Assembly (NCBI GenBank): GCA_004154925.1
Contig: QJNS01000247.1
Span: 1 to 64,000, forward strand
Direction of reading: 5' to 3'
Source of the DNA: Monosporascus cannonballus
Taxonomy: Eukaryota > Ascomycota > Sordariomycetes > Xylariales
DNA: 64,000 bases
Shown here: positions 10,362-48,548 of the stretch, piece after piece
How positions within the stretch are numbered: position 1 is the first letter of the stretch
Layout: every line of letters starts with the position of its first letter
Notes under the pieces: model-generated
The model's database searches: none
Seen by the model: the letters and a program-made list of their open reading frames with translations, nothing else
Told to the model about the DNA's origin: nothing
Position numbers and translations under genes: made by a program

Positions 10362-12581
10362 CTAGCTCGCCGAGTCGTAGGCCGCCTTGACCTCCTTCTC
10401 GTATTTGTTGAGGATGCCGTTGCGGTTGAGCTTCTGGGCGGCGGTCACAAGTCCCTAGATGTATCTGTCAGTTTCCTGCTCTGCACAACATATGTCATAT
10501 CGACTTACGCTTTCTGGGGTCCACTCCTCATCGCAGAGCACGACTCCTTCGATGATCTCGATGCCAGACAGGCCGCCAGCGCGACCGGCGTTCTGGAGCT
10601 GGGTGAGGACAATGCCCTGGAGCTTCTTGTTGTGTACCAGCTCCTCGACGCCAGCTCCCGAGATCCCGTGCGATTCGGCAAGACTCTTCAGGGCTGGCTC
10701 AAGCGGCACGATGATAGCGACGGGTTTGGCCTTGGACTGATCTGCATAGACGCAAATATTGCCGACAAAGCGCACAGATCGGTAGATGGATTCCAGTTTC
10801 TCGAGAGCAATGTATTCACCGTTCAGGGTCTTGACCAAATTCTTCTTACGGTCAATAAGTTTCATATGGCCATTCGGTAGGAATTCACCAATATCGCCGG
10901 TCCTGAACCAACCGTCAGGAGTCATGGCCTCCGCGGTCTCCTTCTCGTTTTGGTAATACCCTTCCATGACGGAAGCACCCCGGATCCAGAGCTCGCCTTG
11001 GGGATTAGGTTTGTTTGTCGCATAGTAACCAGCCTCAGGGTAATCGACGAGTTTGATCTCGATGGAGCCTGGTATAGTGCCAATACTCTCAGTTGACCAT
11101 TCGAGGGGCGACATCAAAGCGCCCATGGCAGAAGTCTCGGTGAGGCCATAACCAATGATCATGGGCGCAATGGCCATGGAGATGAACTGTTGGGTATCCT
11201 TGGAAACCGGACCACCGCCGTTCATGCAGAGCTTCAAACGGCCACCAGTGGCTTCCTTGATCTTTTTGAAAACCACCGCGTCAAGAACACCCGCCCCCGG
11301 AAGGCCAGAAGATAGCAGTCGACTCTTCAAGGACAAGCCACCCCAGAACATGTTCTGGACCACAGGGCTGCCGGCAGCCACCTTGGCAGTAATGCCCTTC
11401 TTGACGGACTCCCAGACGGCAGGGACACCAACCAGAACAGACGGCTTAAACTCGCGAATGTCACCGGCACAGTTGCGAACCGAGGTGTCCGAGAGAGTCT
11501 TGGGGTTGCCATATCCGAGGGTTGCGCCCCAGTACAGTGCGGCATTCTCGAAGACGAGCTCCAGAATGTGCGCAAGGGGAAGATAGGTGAGCAGTCCGTC
11601 TCCAGGCCCAATGAAGGGCTGGATAATGACACTTACGCCGGTAACTAAAGCACACGGTTAGTCTCTGAGCCCCTCTTCCGATGGCGGATCAGACTTACCT
11701 GCAGCCACAAGGTTCCTATGCTTCAGGGGTGCACCCTTGGGGGTACCAGTCGAGCCCGAAGTGTACATGATACAGCAGAGGTCTTCAGGAGTAGGCGGAA
11801 CGGGATCGGAGGGGTTGTCCCTGCCTAGCTTCTCAAGCTCCTTGAAGCTGAGAACAGTGATGTGGGGATATGTGCTCTTGAGGTTGTTGATGTGCTCCTG
11901 TTTGACCTGGTTCTGATTGTTCCAGATGACATAGCGGATCTCCGTGGCGTCTTTGAGAACATTGGTGAGGGTCGGCAGCAGATGGGGGTCGAGGAAGATG
12001 GCCTTGGCACCGGTAGCAACCATGGAGTGTCTTAAGCCTCCCTCGCCGAGCGTATCGTAGGCGGTGACGATAGGCATGGACTGGGAGGAAGCGCCGTGGA
12101 ATGTGGCCAGCCAGTGAGAACTGGTGGCGGCGAAGACGTGAACCCTGTCACCCTTTACCATCCCAAGTTTCCTCAAACCGGAGCCGAGACTGAGAACGAG
12201 CTTCTCATAATCATTGTAGGAAATGTAGTCATATGGGCTGAGCTCGAAGAAAGTCCAGCTCTTGTCGACCTGCTGCTCTACACCATCGACAATCTTCTTG
12301 ACCTTCTTGGTCTCGTGATGGGTGCGAACCAGACGCCGCGAGCCTATAGCCTTCGCGTTGCCATATTTGGCGACAGTCACGCGCATAAGCTCGTAGGCGG
12401 TGGTGATGTCGTCGGAGGGTGTCGTGATGAGGCCATTTTTGGCCAAGGGGTGTCTCCGCGGGATCGTCTCACCTTCAACAGGCTTGGCTCCGGGCACTTC
12501 GACGGAGAAAGGTGGCTTCGCCGATGTCTTGGGCTGGAGGTTGAGGTGCCTCAGCTTCGACTCTTGCCACTCGGTAGTCAT
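10362..12581 (-). CDS. Long-chain fatty-acid-CoA ligase (Faa1/Faa4 type), 3 exons
   Basis: Activates long-chain fatty acids: fatty acid + ATP + CoA gives acyl-CoA + AMP + PPi. The yeast Faa1/Faa4 relatives act at ER, lipid droplets and plasma membrane. Exons on the minus strand are 12581-11699, 11644-10509 and 10454-10362, with introns of 54 nt each (GTAAGT donors), giving 703 residues, the usual family length. The adenylate-forming signature YTSGSTGTPKG lies near residue 272. GYGLTETSAMG lies near 458. The fatty-acyl-CoA synthetase motif GWFRTGDIGEFLPNG begins near 538 and is followed by DRKKNLVKTLNGEYI. The first intron falls just after the P-loop-like signature, and splicing restores NLVAAVTGVSV. 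The last exon ends KEVKAAYDSAS. Which FAA paralogue this is cannot be told from the window. Confidence 0.95.
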
Positions 12582-18956: not shown

Positions 18957-21900
18957 TTACAACTCACCGGTACCCCTGATGTACGCAGCCCAATCCGTCG
19001 GCGCTGTCCTCTTCCGGCCATCAAACCCGTCGCCCTCGCGCCAGCACGCCTCGTCCCAGGTGCTGAGGCCGCAGAGGTGCCGCATCGTTGGGCGGCCGTG
19101 GGGGCAGTTCCAGGGCTTGTCAAGCTCGCCCATGTGACGGACGAGCTTCTCCATCTGCCGGGTAGTCAGCGACTTGCCGATCATGACGCTGCTGCGGCAC
19201 GCGCGCATGGCGAACATCTTGCGGACCCTCGACGGTCGGGGTATGACGGCGGCCGACGAGGTGGTTGTGGACGACGGCTGGTGATCGGTGAGGAGGGAGA
19301 TGAGCTCCTCGAGATCGGCGAGCGAGAAGGTCGTCTCGCGGCTTAGCGGTAGGCTTAGAAGCCGGCACCGCGAGCCGACGGGCCGGTCACTGCCCTCGCC
19401 GTCGTCAACGTCGACGAGGAATCCGTTGGCTTCGAGAGCGGCGAGGTTCTCCTTGACCACCTCCTCTTCGAGGGCCGTGAGCTCGAGGGGCTTCGGCTGC
19501 ACGAGCCGCTGCGACTGCACAACGGTGCTCGCCTGAAGGCGCTCGAAATTGTACTTCTCGTCGGTGGCGTGCTGGTCGATGATGAACAGCTCGTCGTCTT
19601 CTCCGGTGGCGCCGTCGCCGCTGCCAGCGGTAGTGGTAGCTCGCTCGGCCGGGCGGACCGCTATGATGAAGCCTAGGTTAAACTGCCCGATGATCTTCAT
19701 CTTGTCAAAATCCGATTTCGAGATCTTCAGCGACAGCTTCTCCTCGGCGTCGTCCGCGTCGAGCCTGTTGGCAGATGGCGCGGAACCTGACTCCAGAAGT
19801 GATTTTCCCAGGTAAACGTCGCGGTCGGCGAGGGCACGTCGTATACGACTCTCATCGATGCGCAGGTTCTGCTGTAGTGGAAACGTCGCGTCCTTTTTCT
19901 TTGTGCCTCCTTTGATGAAGCTGTGCGTGCGTTTCTCGGTCTCTTCTGAGACCCCCTTGATGGCGTCTTCTTCTGATTGAGCCTCGGTCGATGCTCCAAG
20001 CTCTTTCCGAGCTACTCTCGTTTCTTCGTCTATGTATTCTTCATCGCTCTGATTGGTCGGGGACCGATGCTCGTCTTCCTCAACAATGTCTTCTTCGGCA
20101 GCGTTTGGGGTGGCACCGTCATCGCTATGGTCGTGATCCTCTCCAATGTCCCGTGCGTCATCTTCTTGAGCCTTTTCGCCTTCGCCGTCACTTACGAAGA
20201 GATGCTCACTTGATGACGACTCGGACTCTTCCGCACCATCTACTGATTCGGAAGTAACTACAATCTCCTCAGTTTCGGTGGGTGTTGCTTGACTGTTGGC
20301 GGAGAACATCTGTGTGAGACGGCCATGGAACGAAGGAACTGGCATCGACTCTTTCACCTTCTGTCGCCGAGGTGAGTTGCTCACGTGGGCATCTTCTGCT
20401 CGGAATCTCTTCGAGGGGGAGCCGATGACACTAGTGACTGTATCATTGCCTATCGTAATCGTCGCAACCTCTGGTGCGGTCCGCTTCAGGCCCCTAGAAA
20501 GTGCGGCTGTCCCTGTTCGCATATCTGTCGTTCGCGGTGGGGCAGAGACGGCTGGAATCGGAGGTTCTGCAACATGCGGCTTCGAGTCGACACCGTCTCC
20601 TACTGGCTTCCCCCCCTGTGAGCTGCGGAGCTCTTCCAACCGGGCACGAAAATCCGCGCCCTGATTAGGCTTTTCGTTCGCTTCTCGTACGGGTGATGAA
20701 GGCTGCGAGAGCCCTTCCTCTTCCGATTCGTTCTCCTGCACACCTTCGCTATCTCTTCTCAGCTTGGCAGCAAGTTTCTCTTTCGATTTTGTAGCTTCGT
20801 TCTCGCGACTCTCTGACACCCGTGCAACCACCCTGTCAGTTCGCGGATCCGACTCTCGCTCGATCCAGCGGCTGATGAGGCCGTCCCGCGCTAGTAACTT
20901 AGCCGCAATCAGATTGCTTTGGGTGCGCTCGTCGTCATCGTTATCTTCTTCGCTCTCACTCGCCTTATGTTGTTTCGAGTCTGCTGACAGAGATACACCA
21001 CGAGCATCCTTCTCGGACAACGCTGGACTATCTTTTCCACTTTCGGATGTTTCAGTACCCCGCCTATCGATAGAGAATTTATTGAATGGTGTCTGCTTCG
21101 GCATCGATAATTGTGACACGGGCACCGCATAATCGTGCGACTCGAATAGCGCTATAAGTGACTCCCTAAGATTATCAAGCATCCGAGATTGATCGTGCAG
21201 GAGGATAGTCCGCTTGTCGGGGCTCACGTTGACGTCGTAGAGGTGCGTGTCTAGCTGGATATCTGCAAAGATGAAGGGCGACTGCGAGGCATTATACGAC
21301 TTGTATACCTCGTTGAATACTTTCGCAAATTGCGGCAGTCCACAGGGGCGTCCATTGACAAAGAACATTTGCCTGTCGGGTGTCTGTCGTCCTTCTCCAT
21401 GAGCGGGGCGAGAGACATGACCACGAACATGTACCTCCTTGGTGCCTCCGTCTTCTTGCCCGGTCCAGCGCTGACCAGGTGCGTTGGTAGGCTCGAACTC
21501 CAACTTGAGATCCAGAGGTATCAGAACGGACAACGTCTTGGCACCAAACACGTTGATAATATTTTCACGTGTGGTGTGGTTAACTTTCGTCGAGAACAAG
21601 ACCACGCGTTTCCCTTTAGTCGGCTGTTGGGAGACGGAAAATTTGACGCCCGTCTGCACGCAGGCATATTGATTGAGAAGGCCGATGACTCTATTCCACT
21701 CGCGCTTGATGTTGCGCTCGAGCTCACGTCGACGGACAGGTAGGTTACGGAAAAGTCCCTCTACCGATACAGTGGTCCCCCTCTGGGCGGCTACCACGCT
21801 CGTGCCAGAAAGCTTTCCCGAAGTTTCAAACTCCAGCTTGGAGCCTTTCGGCGCGTCGACCGCCAGACAAGTGGTAACGGTAAACTTAGAGAGGGCGCAG

Positions 21901-22343
21901 AGGGAAGATAATGCTTCGCCCCGAAAGCCGAAGGTTTGTAGAGTGCCGAGGTCGTCGTAAGTAGACAACTTGGAGGTGTAGTGTTTTAAGGCTAGTGTCT
22001 CGTAGTTTTCCTTCGAGATGCCAGAACCGTTATCTTGAACCTCGATGGAATCTAAGCCTTGGTTCTTAAATCGGACGTCTTCGTATCGCCAACCAGGTCA
22101 GCACCGAATCAAGCACAACTCACCGCGACCGGAGCGCGGCCACGAACCGATATTGGTTGCCCCAGCATCCAGGCTGTTCTCAACGAGTTCCTTCACAACG
22201 GAGCAAAGGTCGACAATGACCTGCCCGGACTGAATCTGATGGACCTATACGAGGGACGCTCAGCACACTCCTCTCTCCCATCTGCTCGGGTGTGCCAACC
22301 GAACACATACCGTCCGAGCCTCGATAGGCTTGATCGTCGCCAT
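18957..22343 (-). CDS. pms1: DNA mismatch repair protein Pms1 (MutL alpha subunit), 3 exons
   Basis: Partner of Mlh1 in the MutL-alpha nicking endonuclease of mismatch repair, acting in the nucleus. The model is 22343-22311, 22244-22148 and 22078-18957, giving 1083 residues. Two short 5' exons supply the start [12 protein letters not shown] and the first ATPase motif. GHKL ATPase motifs are seen as [21 protein letters not shown] and [10 protein letters not shown] (residues about 30-96). A long acidic, Ser-rich linker follows (about 330-780). The C-terminal metal-binding endonuclease motif [12 protein letters not shown] lies near residue 877, with ACRSS and CPHGRPT (about 1033), so the active site looks complete. 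The final residues contain a GTGAGT that could splice to an alternative tail. The coding strand is G+C-rich and produces many false frames on the plus strand. Confidence 0.95.
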
Positions 22344-24694: not shown

Positions 24695-27600
24695 ATGAAG
24701 GGGCGTTCATCAGGGTCGGCCGAAGACAGCGCCCCTGCCCGTATCGAGACTACGCACTCTAGAGAGTCCTCGAGGCCGAATGATCAACGTTCTACCGCCC
24801 GGCGCTCTCCCTCCAGTTCCAACGAACAGCAGTATTCGAGCACAAGAGCTACATCTGCGCGGAATCGGACATCGACCTCCAATGTCGAATGGAGGGCTAC
24901 ACAGGACCAGAATGGATTCCGGGAGAAGGAGTTCTCTACTGGGCAGCCTCTTGCGGTGACGACATCTTCCGAGGACGACACTATCAAAGGTGGGAAAGGG
25001 GCCGAATGGCGGCCGAATAGGGGCTGGCTGTCTCCGTCTCGTAGTCCGTGGGCTATATCGCTCTTGACTCTTTTCTCAAGCATTATCGGGATTGTCCTCC
25101 TATGCGCCGTGCTAAGATCCTCGACCAAACTGCACTGCGACGTCAAAGGATGCCGTATGTCATATATGCGACCTTCGTACATAAAGTTTAACGACTTCGA
25201 TACTGAACATACTCGGTTCGCAAGCAAGTATTCGTTATATTTATATCGAGAAGACGGAATTATCTACGATGGAAAGGTAGGAGGCAGAAGAAACGGTATT
25301 CTCCCACAGAGCTATTGTTAATTTGCTCGATAGATTTCCGGCATACCGGTGCTTTTCATACCTGGGAATGCCGGCAGCTACAAGCAGGTTAGGCCTATCG
25401 CCTCGGAGGCTGCTAACTACTTCCACGACGTCCTACAGCACGATACGGCAGCTACGGTTGCCGGTATCAAGAATCTTGACTTCTTTACCGTTGACTTCAA
25501 TGAGGATTTCACGGCTTTCGATGGACAGACTATGTTGGATCAAGCTGAGTATGTGAATGAAGCGATCCGATATATCTTGTCTCTCTATCTCGATCCACGC
25601 CTGTCGGACCGAGACCCTGATCTGCCGGATCCCACTTCGGTCATAGTGCTAGGGCATTCGATGGGAGGAATCGTTGCGCGCACTATGCTTATAATGCCGA
25701 ACTATCAACCCGACTCGATAAACACCATCATTACTATGTCAGCTCCACATGCGCGGCCGCCCGTGACCTTTGACCCACAGATTGTCCAAATCTACGAAGA
25801 CATCAACCGGCACTGGAGAGATTCGTATTCACAGCAGTGGACTGATAATAACCCTCTCCGGCAGGTCACTCTCGTATCAATCGCTGGTGGCGGCTTGGAT
25901 ACTGTTGTTCCGTCAGATTATGCAAGCCTCGAATCCATAGTACCGGACACGCATGGTTTCACTGTTTTCACATCCACGATCCCCAATGTCTGGACTAGCA
26001 TGGACCATCAAGCCATCACGTGGTGTGACCAATTTCGGAAGGTCATCACACGTGCCCTATATGAAATCGTCGATATCGGCCGCGCATCGCAGACGAGACC
26101 ACGGTCTGAGAGAATGGGGGTTTTCAAGAAATGGTTTCTGACTGGACTGGAGAACGTAGCCGAAAAAACGGTAACCCAGAAAAAGCCCGGCACGTTGCTG
26201 ACTTTCGAAGACGGCCCGAACCCTACCATCGTCCAGGGCGAGCGACTCACGCTTCGCAGATTAGGAATCGACGAGGGCCCCAGGACGCACCTCCTCACCA
26301 TCCCATCTGGTAGCTCCGCTAATGCTAAGTCGTTCACTTTATTGTCTAACGCTGAGTTGAGCGGCCCAGGAGATGAAGGTCCCCTGGAAGTGCTTCTCTG
26401 CAGCGCCCACCCTCCAGAACCTGGCCAAGAGGAGATTACGTTGACGATGGACGTGGATATTTCCAGCAATGATGCCAACGATGGTAGCGTAGCGAAGTTG
26501 ATCTGCCACAACGCAGCATCTGACGTGGTGCTTTTGCCGGCGTCTACCCGCGCGACGGCACACCCCTTTTCTGTCGACGGCGAAATGCGAACCCAGCCCT
26601 TCTCATATCTACAGTACGATCTGAAAGGCATAGCTGGTTACCAGTATGTCGCAGTTGTGGATAAGGCGGGTTCTCGGACTTCGTCATGGGTAGTGGCCGA
26701 GTTTAGCGATAGGTCCGCCTCACATTCTACCAGCTATATCGGCCTGAACCGGCTTCTTGCATTCGGCTTACAACTCCATCTTCCTTCTAAGCGGCCTATG
26801 GTTACGGAGATACATATCCCCTCGGTTGAGAGCAGTTTGTTGGCGTACAATCTAGAAATCGAGGGACACGGCTGCTCTCAACATGATGAACTCTTCGCAC
26901 CATTGGTACGGCAATATCTATCTGAGCCTTACGAGTCTAAATATTTTGTCAATGCGAGAAATGTCGAAGTCAGCCTCCACGGTATATCGCCCTATATGCC
27001 ATCGCCAATGAAACCCAAGAGGCCCGATAGGGGAATAAGCTTCCAGCTCTGGACTGATCCAACCTGCGGCTCGAGTATCTCGATACGCCTGGCCGTGGAT
27101 CCTCTGGCCAGCTTGGGGAAGTTATACATGCGATACCGCACGGTTTTCGCGTCATTCCCTATTCTTATAGTGGCACTAGTTCTGCGGCAGCAATTCCGTA
27201 TGTATGACACCACTGGGGTGTTTATTTCATTCTCCGAGAGTTTGGACAGCTGCCTCAGACGCTCCCTGCCACTGCTGCTCTTGTCGTTAACGCTCCTGTC
27301 ACTCACTATCGGCCAGCTCACTATGTCCCCATTCAGTACGCTATGGCCCCGTGGGAGCATCACAGACACGGTCGACTTTAGCCAGAATGACCTGCTGACT
27401 GGAACTCATGATCCACTATTCTGGTTCTTGGTACCGATGATTGGGCTAGTCTGTACTGGGGTTTGCGTGGCACTACATTACGTTGCACTACTGCTCACGT
27501 ACATTCTCAGCTTATTCTGTGGGCACACTTTCACCCTATTTTCCGGTCTCAACTCTAGGGCGCGCGCGTTCTTCTTGCCTAGCACATGGCAAGAAGACAG

Positions 27601-40664: not shown

Positions 40665-41246
40665 AGCAGAGCTTCTTGTGTGAAGGGGGGGGGAGGTAGG
40701 AGAGTGTGCTAGGAAAGACTTGTGCGGGTGAAGGGTTAGTGATCAGCTAAGAAAGGTCAGATGCGGAAACCCGGTAAATGAAACGAGATGAAGTGTTCGT
40801 ACAAGAAATTCTACTAGTTATTACAGTGTATAAAGCAGTGAAAAACTAGTTATTGTGGCTGTTGCAGATGCCCATGCCTTGCCACCGTAAGGCAGTTTCT
40901 TAATAATTCCATGAGATGGAGCTTGGGATTCTAGAGGAAAGACGACATCATCGAACTTAGTCATAGTGTCAATTGCTAAGCCGACACTGGCCCGGGTCGG
41001 TTCCAGATGGCGCCCATATGATGCTGCAGCTGGCTTACACCTGTCATGACTAATCAGCGGCTATCTGATTGCTGGTGGGACAGCTGCCGGACAGCTGCCA
41101 GATGTCGAAAACGCCCCCCTGAGCCCCTTTCGAATTTGGATATAGAGAATCTTTAAAGAACAATTAATTACAGAAAATAGATATGAACATAAGACCTGGC
41201 ATGTGCTTTCATGTTCTTGTGAATCATTGTTCAATGTATCAGATTC
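40665..41246. other. Promoter region of pim1 and spacer
   Basis: This includes the 5' flank of the minus-strand pim1 gene. No gene, repeat or RNA was recognised. Confidence 0.45.
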
Positions 41247-41375
41247 CTGCTGGCTAAACCTCGGAAGTGGCCGAGGAGCGAGTCCCTGCTACCCACCCTC
41301 CGACACTGCAACCCTATATATTCCGGAAAGCACTCTTCTCTCAACAACCTAAAGCCACAGCTACAGAAGTAGTTA
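41247..41375 (+). repeat. Duplicated 5' flank of a tRNA-Asn locus, copy A
   Basis: The sequence from TGCTGGCTAAACCTCGGAAGTGG up to the tRNA 5' end is clearly related to 46464-46582, although diverged by small indels. The homology covers about 120 bp upstream of the tRNA-like sequence in both places, so the locus was duplicated as a unit, not only the tRNA. Confidence 0.7.
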
Positions 41376-41409
41376 TCCTCTGTGGCGCAATTGGACAGCG
41401 CGTCTTTTT
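41376..41409 (+). pseudogene. tRNA-Asn 5'-half, truncated after position 28
   Basis: TCCTCTGTGGCGCAATTGG and the following ACAGCGCGTC give the acceptor 5' strand, the D-arm (GCGC/GCGC) and the first two bases of the anticodon stem, identical or nearly so to the copy at 46583. It stops at 41404 and runs directly into TTTTT, a Pol III terminator. I find no 3' half in the next 200 bp. The A box is intact, so a short transcript is conceivable, but without a B box this is most likely dead. Confidence 0.65.
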
Positions 41410-45828: not shown

Positions 45829-46463
45829 TGGGTTTGCTTTAGCCGTGGTGTGTGGGGTGGGGGTTTTGTGGGGTTTGTGTGCTGCTTAATAAAACCAGAG
45901 TTTTTTTTCCCTTCCTTTTATTGTGACCTCGTAGATATAGTATGCCATTGTAGACATTCTATTATGAATATGTCGACGTTGAGAAGTGGCTCAGGGGCTC
46001 ATGCGGCGTTTCGGTTATTCCCACCGTCAAGCAGGCCGCGATTTGACAGCAGTTCAATCGTTAGCTGGTTGCCCTGACCTTCAACCCCTTGAGGCTTTAG
46101 CCCTGGCCTCGCCGTGGAAGCCCTGGCTGACCTAGACCGACCTGACTTAGAAGCCTGGAGAGCTTTGGGAGCCCTGGGAGGCCTCGGGAAAAAGGGTCCA
46201 GAGCACATAAATAATGCGCCCGGGTCCTCTGTAAGCGCCATTTTTCTTTAAGGAGGCATGAGAAGTGGTTCTGGCCATAGAAGCGAGTATATAATGCTGT
46301 TACGGCCCGCGGTAACCTTACCTCGGATAAGTCCACGTCGGCATTGGAGTGCCAGTCGTCAAACTATCTATCCACTTGAAACCAATAAGTTTATTTTATA
46401 CACCGTCGTGTCCTAATCTATGTTAGTGCTTTGGATCCTCCGCAACATATCAGATCAGACCCC
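45829..46463. other. Spacer, no gene seen
   Basis: No supported gene. A G-rich patch (GTGTGGGGTGGGGG) follows the mini-gene's stop, and a run of CCTGG-type short repeats lies at 46080-46190. Confidence 0.45.
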
Positions 46464-46582
46464 TGCTGGCTAAACCTCGGAAGTGGCTCGGAGTGAATCC
46501 CACGATCCCCCTGTCACCCACACTCCGTTGCATCGCATTAATATACTCTGAAAATCCCCTTCCTACACAACTAGCAGCCACA
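46464..46582 (+). repeat. Duplicated 5' flank of a tRNA-Asn locus, copy B
   Basis: Counterpart of 41247-41375, sharing TGCTGGCTAAACCTCGGAAGTGG and interspersed blocks up to the tRNA start (for example the CACCC...CTCCG segment and the AGCCACA...ATCCTCTG approach). Confidence 0.7.
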
Positions 46583-46727
46583 TCCTCTGTGGCGCAATTG
46601 GCTAGCGCGTCGTCCGTATTCCTATCCATTGCTTGACCTTTCCCTAAAGCTAACCGTTTCTCAGTGACTGTTAAGATCATCAAGATCGGCAATCAGGAGG
46701 TTCGTGGTTCGAGCCCACGCAGGGGAG
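46583..46727 (+). tRNA. tRNA-Asn(GUU), interrupted twice
   Basis: The ends pair as a perfect 7-bp acceptor stem (TCCTCTG at 46583-46589 with CAGGGGA at 46720-46726, discriminator G46727). The D-stem is GCGC/GCGC. The T-arm is CGTGG-TTCGAGC-CCACG. The anticodon arm forms only after two removals: 46612-46664 (53 nt) and about 46674-46691 (18 nt). Then TCTGA pairs with TCAGG around the loop CTGTTAA, giving anticodon GTT. The 18-nt piece is at the normal eukaryotic site after position 37. The 53-nt piece lies between positions 28 and 29, starts GTCCGT, contains GCTAAC and ends TTTCTCAG. A T6 Pol III terminator follows at 46741. Both internal promoter boxes are intact. It may be a functional gene with an extraordinary second intron, or an insertionally dead copy. 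Confidence 0.75.
46612..46664 (+). other. 53-nt GT-AG segment within the tRNA anticodon stem
   Basis: Has the 5' GTCCGT, the branch-like GCTAAC 14 nt before the 3' end, a short pyrimidine tract and CAG, all as in a fungal spliceosomal intron of typical length. Its removal restores C28 next to T29. No target-site duplication typical of a transposon is visible at its ends. Confidence 0.6.
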
Positions 46728-46740
46728 GTGATGACTTAAC

Positions 46741-46746
46741 TTTTTT
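46741..46746 (+). terminator. Pol III terminator of the tRNA-Asn gene
   Basis: Six consecutive T residues starting 14 nt after the discriminator base, the usual spacing for a tRNA gene terminator. Confidence 0.75.
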
Positions 46747-48548
46747 CCCTTCATCCTTTCGTAATGCAAGATGTATGATGCTAGTTGCTAGCTTGATTAG
46801 TAGAGGAGAGAATCTATAATAGAGGAGAACACGGTCAAGAACTACTTAGGCACATGATATATATGCAGCGGTGCCCTGTAAGGCATACCTATTCTATCTA
46901 CCTAGAATCTATCCAACCCCAGCGTGTCGCCATCAACCAGAACAACATAGAGGTCAAATACACCATCGGGGGGGAATCCCGACACCCATAAATTCCCTCA
47001 ACGCTTCTGTTTCAACTGCTGGGACTCTGTTGGCGTGTAGATGGTGGTTTGAAAGGTTTATTTGATGTGCCAGGAATTTTGAACCCGGCTAGGCGCCCGC
47101 TCTGTTCTTGAGCCATGGCTTGCTGTTCCTGTCGGCAGAAGTTTTTCTTGTTGTGCATCAATCTAGGAGTGCAACTGTCCCTGTCTAACCGACCAGGTAA
47201 TGTTCGCAATGTCTCGGGTAGTACGCGGCGTCGGCAGGATAATTCTTGTGAGAGTTGCAGTTGGTACAGAACATATCTAGCGACAATAGTGGGGTAGAGT
47301 TGCCGTTATCGATATTGGTGAAGCGCGGAGGGGTCAGCATCTTCAATACAAGGATTGTTGACAATGACGGAACCGTTTGATGCCCAAGCAAGTGAGAGAT
47401 TATTGTATGTGTTTGAAGCTAGTATTGCGGATATAGACGATGGAATGGAATTGTGCTATATCAGCATATTTCACCGGCCGCTGGGGCCGCGAAGCTGTGT
47501 CAGACGCGGGTCCGAACGTGCAAACTCCAATTCGGATGGTAAAGCATTACGAAATGGAAGGCGTGCGACTAGGACGCATATAGAAGCGATTTGGCTAAAG
47601 TAGCCGGGCAGTTCCAAGGCGGTTCTGATGATCTGACAGCATTAGATCGCGGAGGGTAGTGTTTGCTGGTGTCGGTTAAGTCGAATTCCAAACTCGACTG
47701 CCCAATAGAGATGAGTGAGTCAGACTGCGGACGCGACATGACAGCTCCTGAACGATAATTGATAGTGTAAACGTGCGAAATTGGCGCCAAAGTGATTGGC
47801 GATGGAATCAAGGTTACATCCCCCAATAGACGATTTAGACACAGGCGAGCTGGCTGCTGAGTGAACGTTTGTGATGGCCCATCGAAGCCGGAGTCTTTTC
47901 GACGGTGAAAGTCGATGAGCGCGCGGTTTATGGATTAATATTTGAATGTTTGGAAGAGGAGGCTTATTGTAAGGGAGACTGCAGCATCCAGAATGCACTG
48001 GTAATCCTGTGACGTTGCAGCTGTAACAGTGCTTGCCCTGCGCTATCCGGAAGCACATAGGGCAGTCGTAGTGGAACCCGTTAATGCACACGACAGCCAG
48101 CAGTGGACCTGATCGGGGAATGCGGGAGATAAGCCCCCGAAAAAGCATATCCAGGGGTGAGTAACTCCCTACAGTAAACGGCTGCAGCAATAATTTGTTC
48201 TCGGTTATCAGCTGTGTTTCTTGCAGGTGTCATGGTATTGTGGATGTCTGAAGACGTGGGAAGCCACGGAAGACTTGTCGAAACCTTTATATGGATGATT
48301 GGCAAGTTCACGGGACGACAAATCTATATAGGTTGAGATGTTGCTGGCGGTGAAGCCCTATATCGTAATACTTGAGGGATCTTCTTTTTCGATACATCGC
48401 TGGCGAGATGGTGCGGCGCATTACGGGGCCCTGTGTGGCATGATGTATCATGACACTTTGGACGGTCGAAGCTCTTATTTGCTCTAATGACGAGCGTCGT
48501 CTAAGAGGATGTCTGTTGTCGTCACGAGTACGAGCAAGAAACACCCCC
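46747..48548. other. Gene-poor stretch, no confident gene
   Basis: A 156-codon minus frame (47720-48190) includes cysteines (YDCPMC...HCYSC) but has no clear zinc-finger spacing and no homologous flank that I recognise. The remaining frames are under 90 codons. Some of this may be decayed coding DNA attached to the helicase relic that follows. Confidence 0.35.

Follow-up and report, generated by a model that had tools for sequence, protein, structure and literature searches.

The tRNA-Asn(GUU) gene at 46583-46727 on the forward strand of the window, a 64,000-nt stretch of the Monosporascus cannonballus genome (contig QJNS01000247.1), forms a cloverleaf only if two segments, of 18 nt and 53 nt, are taken out, which raises the question of what the larger segment is and which machinery would remove it. 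In the textbook view, a nuclear tRNA gene has a single intron, located at 37/38, and a dedicated endonuclease excises it.

All parts of the gene lie on the forward strand. Exon 1 (46583-46611) comprises tRNA positions 1-28, namely the 5' strand of the acceptor stem, the D arm and the first two bases of the anticodon stem, and contains the A box TGGCGCAATTGG (46590-46601). It is followed by the 53-nt segment (46612-46664), placed between positions 28 and 29 by fold parsing, which begins with GTCCGT, ends with TCAG and contains the branch-site-like sequence GCTAAC (46649-46654), whose YTRAY motif ends 10 nt short of the end of the segment. ARAGORN identified exon 2 (46665-46673, positions 29-37) with the anticodon GTT at 46670-46672. 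The 18-nt segment (46674-46691), recognised by ARAGORN after removal of the 53 nt and supported by the fold z-score, lies between positions 37 and 38, the canonical TSEN-type position. Exon 3 (46692-46727, positions 38-73) carries the B box (46706-46716) and the discriminator G73, and a run of six T residues resembling a Pol III terminator is located 13 nt 3' of the gene (46741-46746). The cloverleaf, the GTT anticodon, G73, both internal boxes and a terminator expected of a functional tRNA-Asn gene are present in the sequence.

With both segments cut out, ARAGORN reported a 74-nt tRNA-Asn(GTT) in which every arm is paired, and with the 53 nt alone cut out it reported tRNA-Asn with an 18-nt intron in the anticodon loop. 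If introns were allowed in the uncut sequence, the program returned either Leu(CAA) or Asn(ATT), depending on the setting, with mispaired anticodon stems in each. The claim of an earlier note that pairing of the arms requires taking out 18 nt at 37/38 and 53 nt at 28/29 therefore agrees with both the ARAGORN predictions and the coordinates. No tRNA was found in the uncut window by ARAGORN without introns (bacterial code) or by Rfam at the gathering threshold, and a permissive Rfam search of 46500-46800 gave no tRNA among its matches. An Rfam match to SNORD12 just downstream of the gene scored 22.2 bits against a gathering threshold of 43 and was taken as chance. Thermodynamic folding of the precursor lacking the 53 nt (z -3.13) yields the acceptor, D and anticodon arms together with a hairpin in the intron, and a T arm that differs from that of the cloverleaf; in the precursor retaining the 53 nt (z -0.61) the anticodon arm is gone.

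The fit of the 53-nt segment to an mRNA-type intron was evaluated with a custom parser, which excises a single segment at any place, optionally a 37/38 intron as well, and rates the product by tRNA features alone, ignoring GT and AG. Two top-scoring removals tie for the tRNA-Asn gene, and just one of them is bounded by GT and AG. Replacing the insert by real 53-mers of the window made a GT..AG segment a top fold in 278 of 8000 trials, and in only two of these did it also have a YTRAY motif ending 9-12 nt from the end; for 8000 shuffles of the insert itself the corresponding numbers were 161 and 10. With shuffled inserts of the Asn gene and of representative Lys, Gly, Ala and Arg genes described below (200 shuffles each), a GT..AG removal reached the top in 3, 7, 8, 15 and 9 cases, respectively, and one that also had the branch motif in 0, 0, 0, 1 and 1. 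GTCCGT, GCTAAC and CAG had been described previously as standing at the places expected of an mRNA intron; their positions were confirmed, and the null model places the arrangement beyond chance. An introner or other mobile origin was rejected, as the 53 nt together with the flanking tRNA sequence match nothing else in the genome.

Other genes of this type were sought in the whole genome (88.8 Mb, 618 contigs) by T-arm pattern searches, from which 182 loci were parsed. The first pattern gave 118 matches, 109 of which were among the matches listed (100, plus 9 obtained through a narrower form with 58 matches, all listed); further patterns gave 100, 37 and 53 matches, each fully listed. Matches not yet assigned to a locus and having pairable T-stem ends were picked by eye and fetched as 33 and 40 stretches, one of the 40 (L182) having been chosen for a match to a 5' half. 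Of the 100-match T-arm pattern, 30 loci were examined, and none yielded a tRNA. Entry into the parser required seven acceptor pairs, five T-stem pairs, T8 and A14. This partial census yielded 71 candidates, and 62 rows remained after repeat copies and contigs C93 and C392, inferred from their tRNAs to be mitochondrial, were set aside.

In 45 of the 62 rows the tRNA has no intron (6) or a 37/38 intron alone (39; 9-66 nt). Another 11 fold only if one extra segment is removed, and in 10 of these, the tRNA-Asn gene of the window included, a removal with the ends GT and AG is among the top-scoring ones; the eleventh, the tRNA-Lys(TTT) gene of L109, has a segment that begins with GA. The tRNA-Asn gene and nine further tRNA genes of the genome thus carry a GT..AG segment of 49-69 nt outside the 37/38 site, the nine being all five copies found of Lys-CUU, both of Gly-UCC, one of three of Ala-AGC and one of two of Arg-CCU. 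Full T-arm listings obtained with exact motifs for Lys-CTT (five places) and Gly-TCC (two) revealed the segment in every place. At four loci (L094, L096, L148 and L149) two GT..AG removals tie, and the one leaving the usual D-loop was chosen. Besides the ambiguous L052, five rows are left, namely L091, L099, L173, L174 and a Gly copy in L156 that is degenerate; by eye, L173 and L174 resemble Pro-CGG genes with a canonical intron.

The ten tRNA introns share a signature with an insert in a U6 snRNA gene, described below. The donor is GTRAG in 10 of these 11 sequences, compared with 2.9% of random GT..AG segments, the exception being GTCCGT of the Asn gene. A YTRAY motif ends 9-12 nt before the 3' end in all 11, while in random GT..AG segments it is found anywhere between 4 and 20 nt from the end in 13%. 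The canonical 37/38 introns of the same genome, used as a control, have GT..AG ends in 0 of 39 cases and YTRAY at 9-12 nt in 2 of 39. The extended consensus of U2-type donors is GTRAGT-like; against this consensus, GTCCGT preceded by the exon end GTC makes the Asn donor the poorest match of the set.

Four mRNA introns of the window provide a comparison for these properties. Two were delimited by eye, a 57-nt intron (25277-25333, forward strand; GTAGGA...TTAAT...ATAG) in a PGAP1-like gene and a 54-nt intron (11645-11698, reverse strand; GTAAGT...CTAAC...TTAG) in an acyl-CoA-synthetase-like gene, both gene names and intron boundaries being presumed from conserved protein sequence. The other two belong to PMS1 on the reverse strand, intron 1 (22245-22310, 66 nt; GTATGT...CTGAG...ATAG) and intron 2 (22079-22147, 69 nt; GTTCGT...CTGAC...GAAG), and their boundaries are consistent with three homologous proteins, two from Monosporascus and one from Diatrype. 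The PMS1 protein (18957-21968) is 92, 90, 89 and 88% identical to those of Monosporascus sp. CRB-8-3, CRB-9-2 and 5C6A and M. ibericus, respectively, and the next organism-named match, to Diatrype, has 67% identity (both statements refer to the best 120 of 2918 matches). A lichen as the source of the DNA, considered in view of the spliceosomal introns in rDNA, was rejected on account of this similarity. The mRNA introns of the window resemble the tRNA and U6 inserts in length and mostly in motifs: they are 54-69 nt long, compared with 49-69 nt for the tRNA introns and 62 nt for the U6 insert; their donors are GTAAGT, GTAGGA, GTATGT and GTTCGT, and three of the four have YTRAY 4-20 nt from the end (at 12, 11 and 18), with none in the fourth.

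Comparison within gene families separates the behaviour of exons and introns. The five Lys-CTT genes have 73 identical exon bases and an intron at 15/16 in every copy, while the intron cores are 55-68% identical in pairwise comparisons, shuffled pairs giving 56% on average. GTAAGR, the branch motif and YAG are common to the five introns and little else is. Identical exons combined with diverged cores indicate that the exons are held and the introns drift, with the donor, branch and acceptor staying. The two Gly-TCC genes share an insertion site, and their introns are 76% identical. The three Ala-AGC genes encode one mature sequence and differ in their introns: L092 has none, L084 has a canonical intron of 30 nt, and L096 a 56-nt GT..AG intron in the D-loop. 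Both the Lys and the Ala introns fall inside the A box and split it. The U6 snRNA gene (L183) contains a 62-nt insert, GTAAGT...CACTAAC...GTAG, between ACAGAGAAGAT and TAGCATGG. Another U6-like copy (L184) of the genome has no insert, and its ACAGAGA box is altered.

Taken together, these data point to the 53-nt segment being a spliceosomal intron of the U2 (mRNA) type within a tRNA gene read by Pol III, with at least nine more such tRNA genes in this genome, and we give this interpretation of the sequences a probability of roughly 0.8. The fungus would then probably need its mRNA-splicing machinery for making some of its tRNAs. In the proposed pathway, Pol III would transcribe the whole tRNA-Asn gene, including both introns, and the spliceosome would take out the 53-nt intron first, in the nucleus. 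This order is suggested by the structure, since the anticodon stem cannot form while the 53 nt remain; only after their loss would it arise and allow the tRNA endonuclease and a ligase to excise the canonical 18-nt intron at 37/38. The ends of tRNA-Asn would be trimmed by RNase P and RNase Z. It also appears reasonably likely that the Lys-CUU and Gly-UCC isoacceptor sets are made only via the spliceosome, that the Asn and Arg-CCU genes depend on two splicing machines, and that translation capacity is tied in this way to the spliceosome, including the intron of its U6.

The earlier note had offered two alternatives, a tRNA with two introns needing an unusual splicing route, and an insertion-inactivated copy whose insert mimics an intron. 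The former is better supported, as nine other tRNA genes and U6 have like inserts. The latter is less so and concerns this gene only. According to it, the window copy would be a decaying pseudogene in which the 53-nt insert is a disabled or merely intron-like sequence, the work being done by another gene, while the introns of the other genes may still be functional. Such a gene exists: the census includes another tRNA-Asn(GTT) gene (L157), whose sole intron is canonical and 16 nt long. The possibility that the window copy is the only tRNA-Asn gene was thereby ruled out, and the claim that it must work was dropped.

The weak donor GTCCGT would also fit a disabled gene, as would a wrecked duplicate in the neighbourhood. 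About 5 kb upstream, a second copy of tRNA-Asn exon 1 alone (41376-41404, forward strand; 27 of 29 bases) is followed directly by TTTTT, and a 49-nt block upstream of it (41238-41286, forward strand) is 86% identical to 46454-46501, upstream of tRNA-Asn. In this remnant (41376-41409) the loss starts at the boundary between exon 1 and the intron (one base is ambiguous) and ends at the T run, past which similarity to the tRNA-Asn locus resumes weakly. It looks like a duplicate of the tRNA-Asn locus that is missing all sequence between the splice site and the terminator. This region has not been stable, and its surviving copy could be inactive despite perfect exons. However, all stem pairs, the A and B boxes, G73 and the T6 run of the window copy are intact, although decay should strike its 74 exon bases too. 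The chance fit of only 2 in 8000 likewise speaks against a pseudogene, and GTTCGT is the donor of a real mRNA intron of the window, in PMS1. Loss of function of the window copy is thus improbable, though it deserves more weight than the other alternatives.

The geometry expected of a substrate of the tRNA endonuclease is the bulge-helix-bulge, in which a central helix of 4 bp, here the intron start paired with exon 2, is accompanied by flanking helices. The second alternative holds that this enzyme cuts the extra segments as non-canonical tRNA introns, in the manner known from archaea and from the red alga Cyanidioschyzon. Non-canonical nuclear tRNA introns are indeed described for C. merolae (PMC4090602), and the central-helix test gave 4 of 4 pairs in L109, a tRNA-Lys(TTT) gene with a GA donor, and 3 of 4 in both Gly genes. 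In contrast, it gave 0 of 4 for the 53-nt Asn intron, 1 of 4 in the five Lys genes, 0 for Arg and 2 for Ala, and both flanking helices were present at no tested junction, that of L109 included. The limited conservation of the five Lys introns, confined to little more than GTAAGR, the branch motif and YAG, is likewise at odds with endonuclease recognition. The U6 insert and the tandem locus L052 each scored 1 of 4. With no central-helix pairs, removal by the endonuclease is unsupported for the Asn gene and, for the extra segments generally, very unlikely; the case of L109 is less clear. That the intron-like look of the window segment is due to chance, for which it may be said that the motifs are short and that 10 of 8000 same-composition shuffles match equally well, is hardly credible given that nine other tRNA genes and U6 show the same signature and that GT..AG is found in 0 of 39 canonical introns.

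The assignment of the 53-nt segment to the spliceosomal introns can be compared with known systems. U6 snRNA genes of fission yeast and some basidiomycetes contain an mRNA-type intron. They are similar in that Pol III transcribes a gene with a spliceosomal intron, and an insert of this kind is also found in U6 of the studied genome; they differ in that U6, unlike a tRNA, is itself a component of the spliceosome. Spliceosomal introns are also known in the nuclear rDNA of ascomycetes, mostly lichen-forming, for which Bhattacharya et al. (2000) are cited; they are reportedly removed completely from the rRNA (PMC8527467). These are again mRNA-type introns in genes for non-coding RNA not read by Pol II, but they belong to Pol I rRNA genes of other fungi, whereas those described here belong to Pol III tRNA genes.

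Canonical nuclear tRNA introns are represented in the window by the 18-nt segment and in the genome by 39 of the 45 single-site genes parsed, whereas the 53-nt segment sits elsewhere and has GT, a branch motif and AG. In archaea and Cyanidioschyzon, too, a tRNA gene can have two or more introns, of the bulge-helix-bulge type, whose positions vary (PMC4090602, PMC8450103), and those of Cyanidioschyzon are attributed to the splicing endonuclease (PMC4090602). In contrast, the Asn, Lys and Arg junctions of M. cannonballus have no such central helix (0-1 of 4 pairs) and show GT..AG ends with a branch motif instead.

We know of no tRNA gene with an mRNA-type intron. None of the literature matches listed describes nuclear tRNA genes with spliceosomal introns, which is weak evidence of absence, as these matches consisted of titles and abstract starts and covered few subscription papers. 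The exon/intron junctions of tRNA-Lys had no matches in viral contigs or prokaryotic genome contigs. The kind of intron is known, and it is tRNA genes as its host for which no report was found.

If the proposed nature of these introns is correct, standard annotation can miss such tRNA genes, as both ARAGORN without introns and Rfam missed tRNA-Asn. The tRNAscan-SE 2.0 paper treats eukaryotic tRNA genes as limited to one intron (PMC8450103). The spliceosome would also have to handle Pol III transcripts that are short and fold tightly, and in the Lys and Ala genes the D-loop intron would even interrupt the A box used by Pol III. How introns are gained and lost could be studied in the Lys, Gly and Ala families, where identical exons are found with introns that are present, diverged or absent.

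Several further loci deserve description. The tRNA-Lys(TTT) gene of L109 (175-310, forward strand) has TACTAAC and CAG at the usual places together with an 11-nt canonical intron, and because of its GA donor it was kept apart from the GT..AG set. On the reverse strand of L052 (approximately 1325-1812 of that strand), tandem tRNA copies are present, the first of which contains GTAAGC...ACTAAC...ACAG in the anticodon loop; it was not counted as a two-intron gene, since introns of 51 and 27 nt (anticodon CCG) and a single intron of 78 nt (GTA) both fit. The tRNA-like genes of L091 (207-310, reverse strand) and L099 (206-310, forward strand) are related to each other; their anticodon stem covaries, and neither has a reading with U33. 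In the tRNA-like gene of L093 (ending at approximately 310, forward strand) the acceptor strands match and a T run follows, and no GT..AG reading resolves its fold. Several loci between L015 and L041 represent a tRNA-derived repeat family, and the C-to-T type differences of many copies look like repeat-induced point mutation.

The Lys-CTT genes (L068, L085, L103, L148 and L149) share a trailer of approximately 40 nt before the T run, which forms two hairpins with fold z-scores of -5.7 in the L068 form and -5.1 in the L148 form. The first hairpin pairs with the 3' strand of the acceptor stem and the end of the T stem and could delay tRNA folding, and the second contains a paired change in L148.
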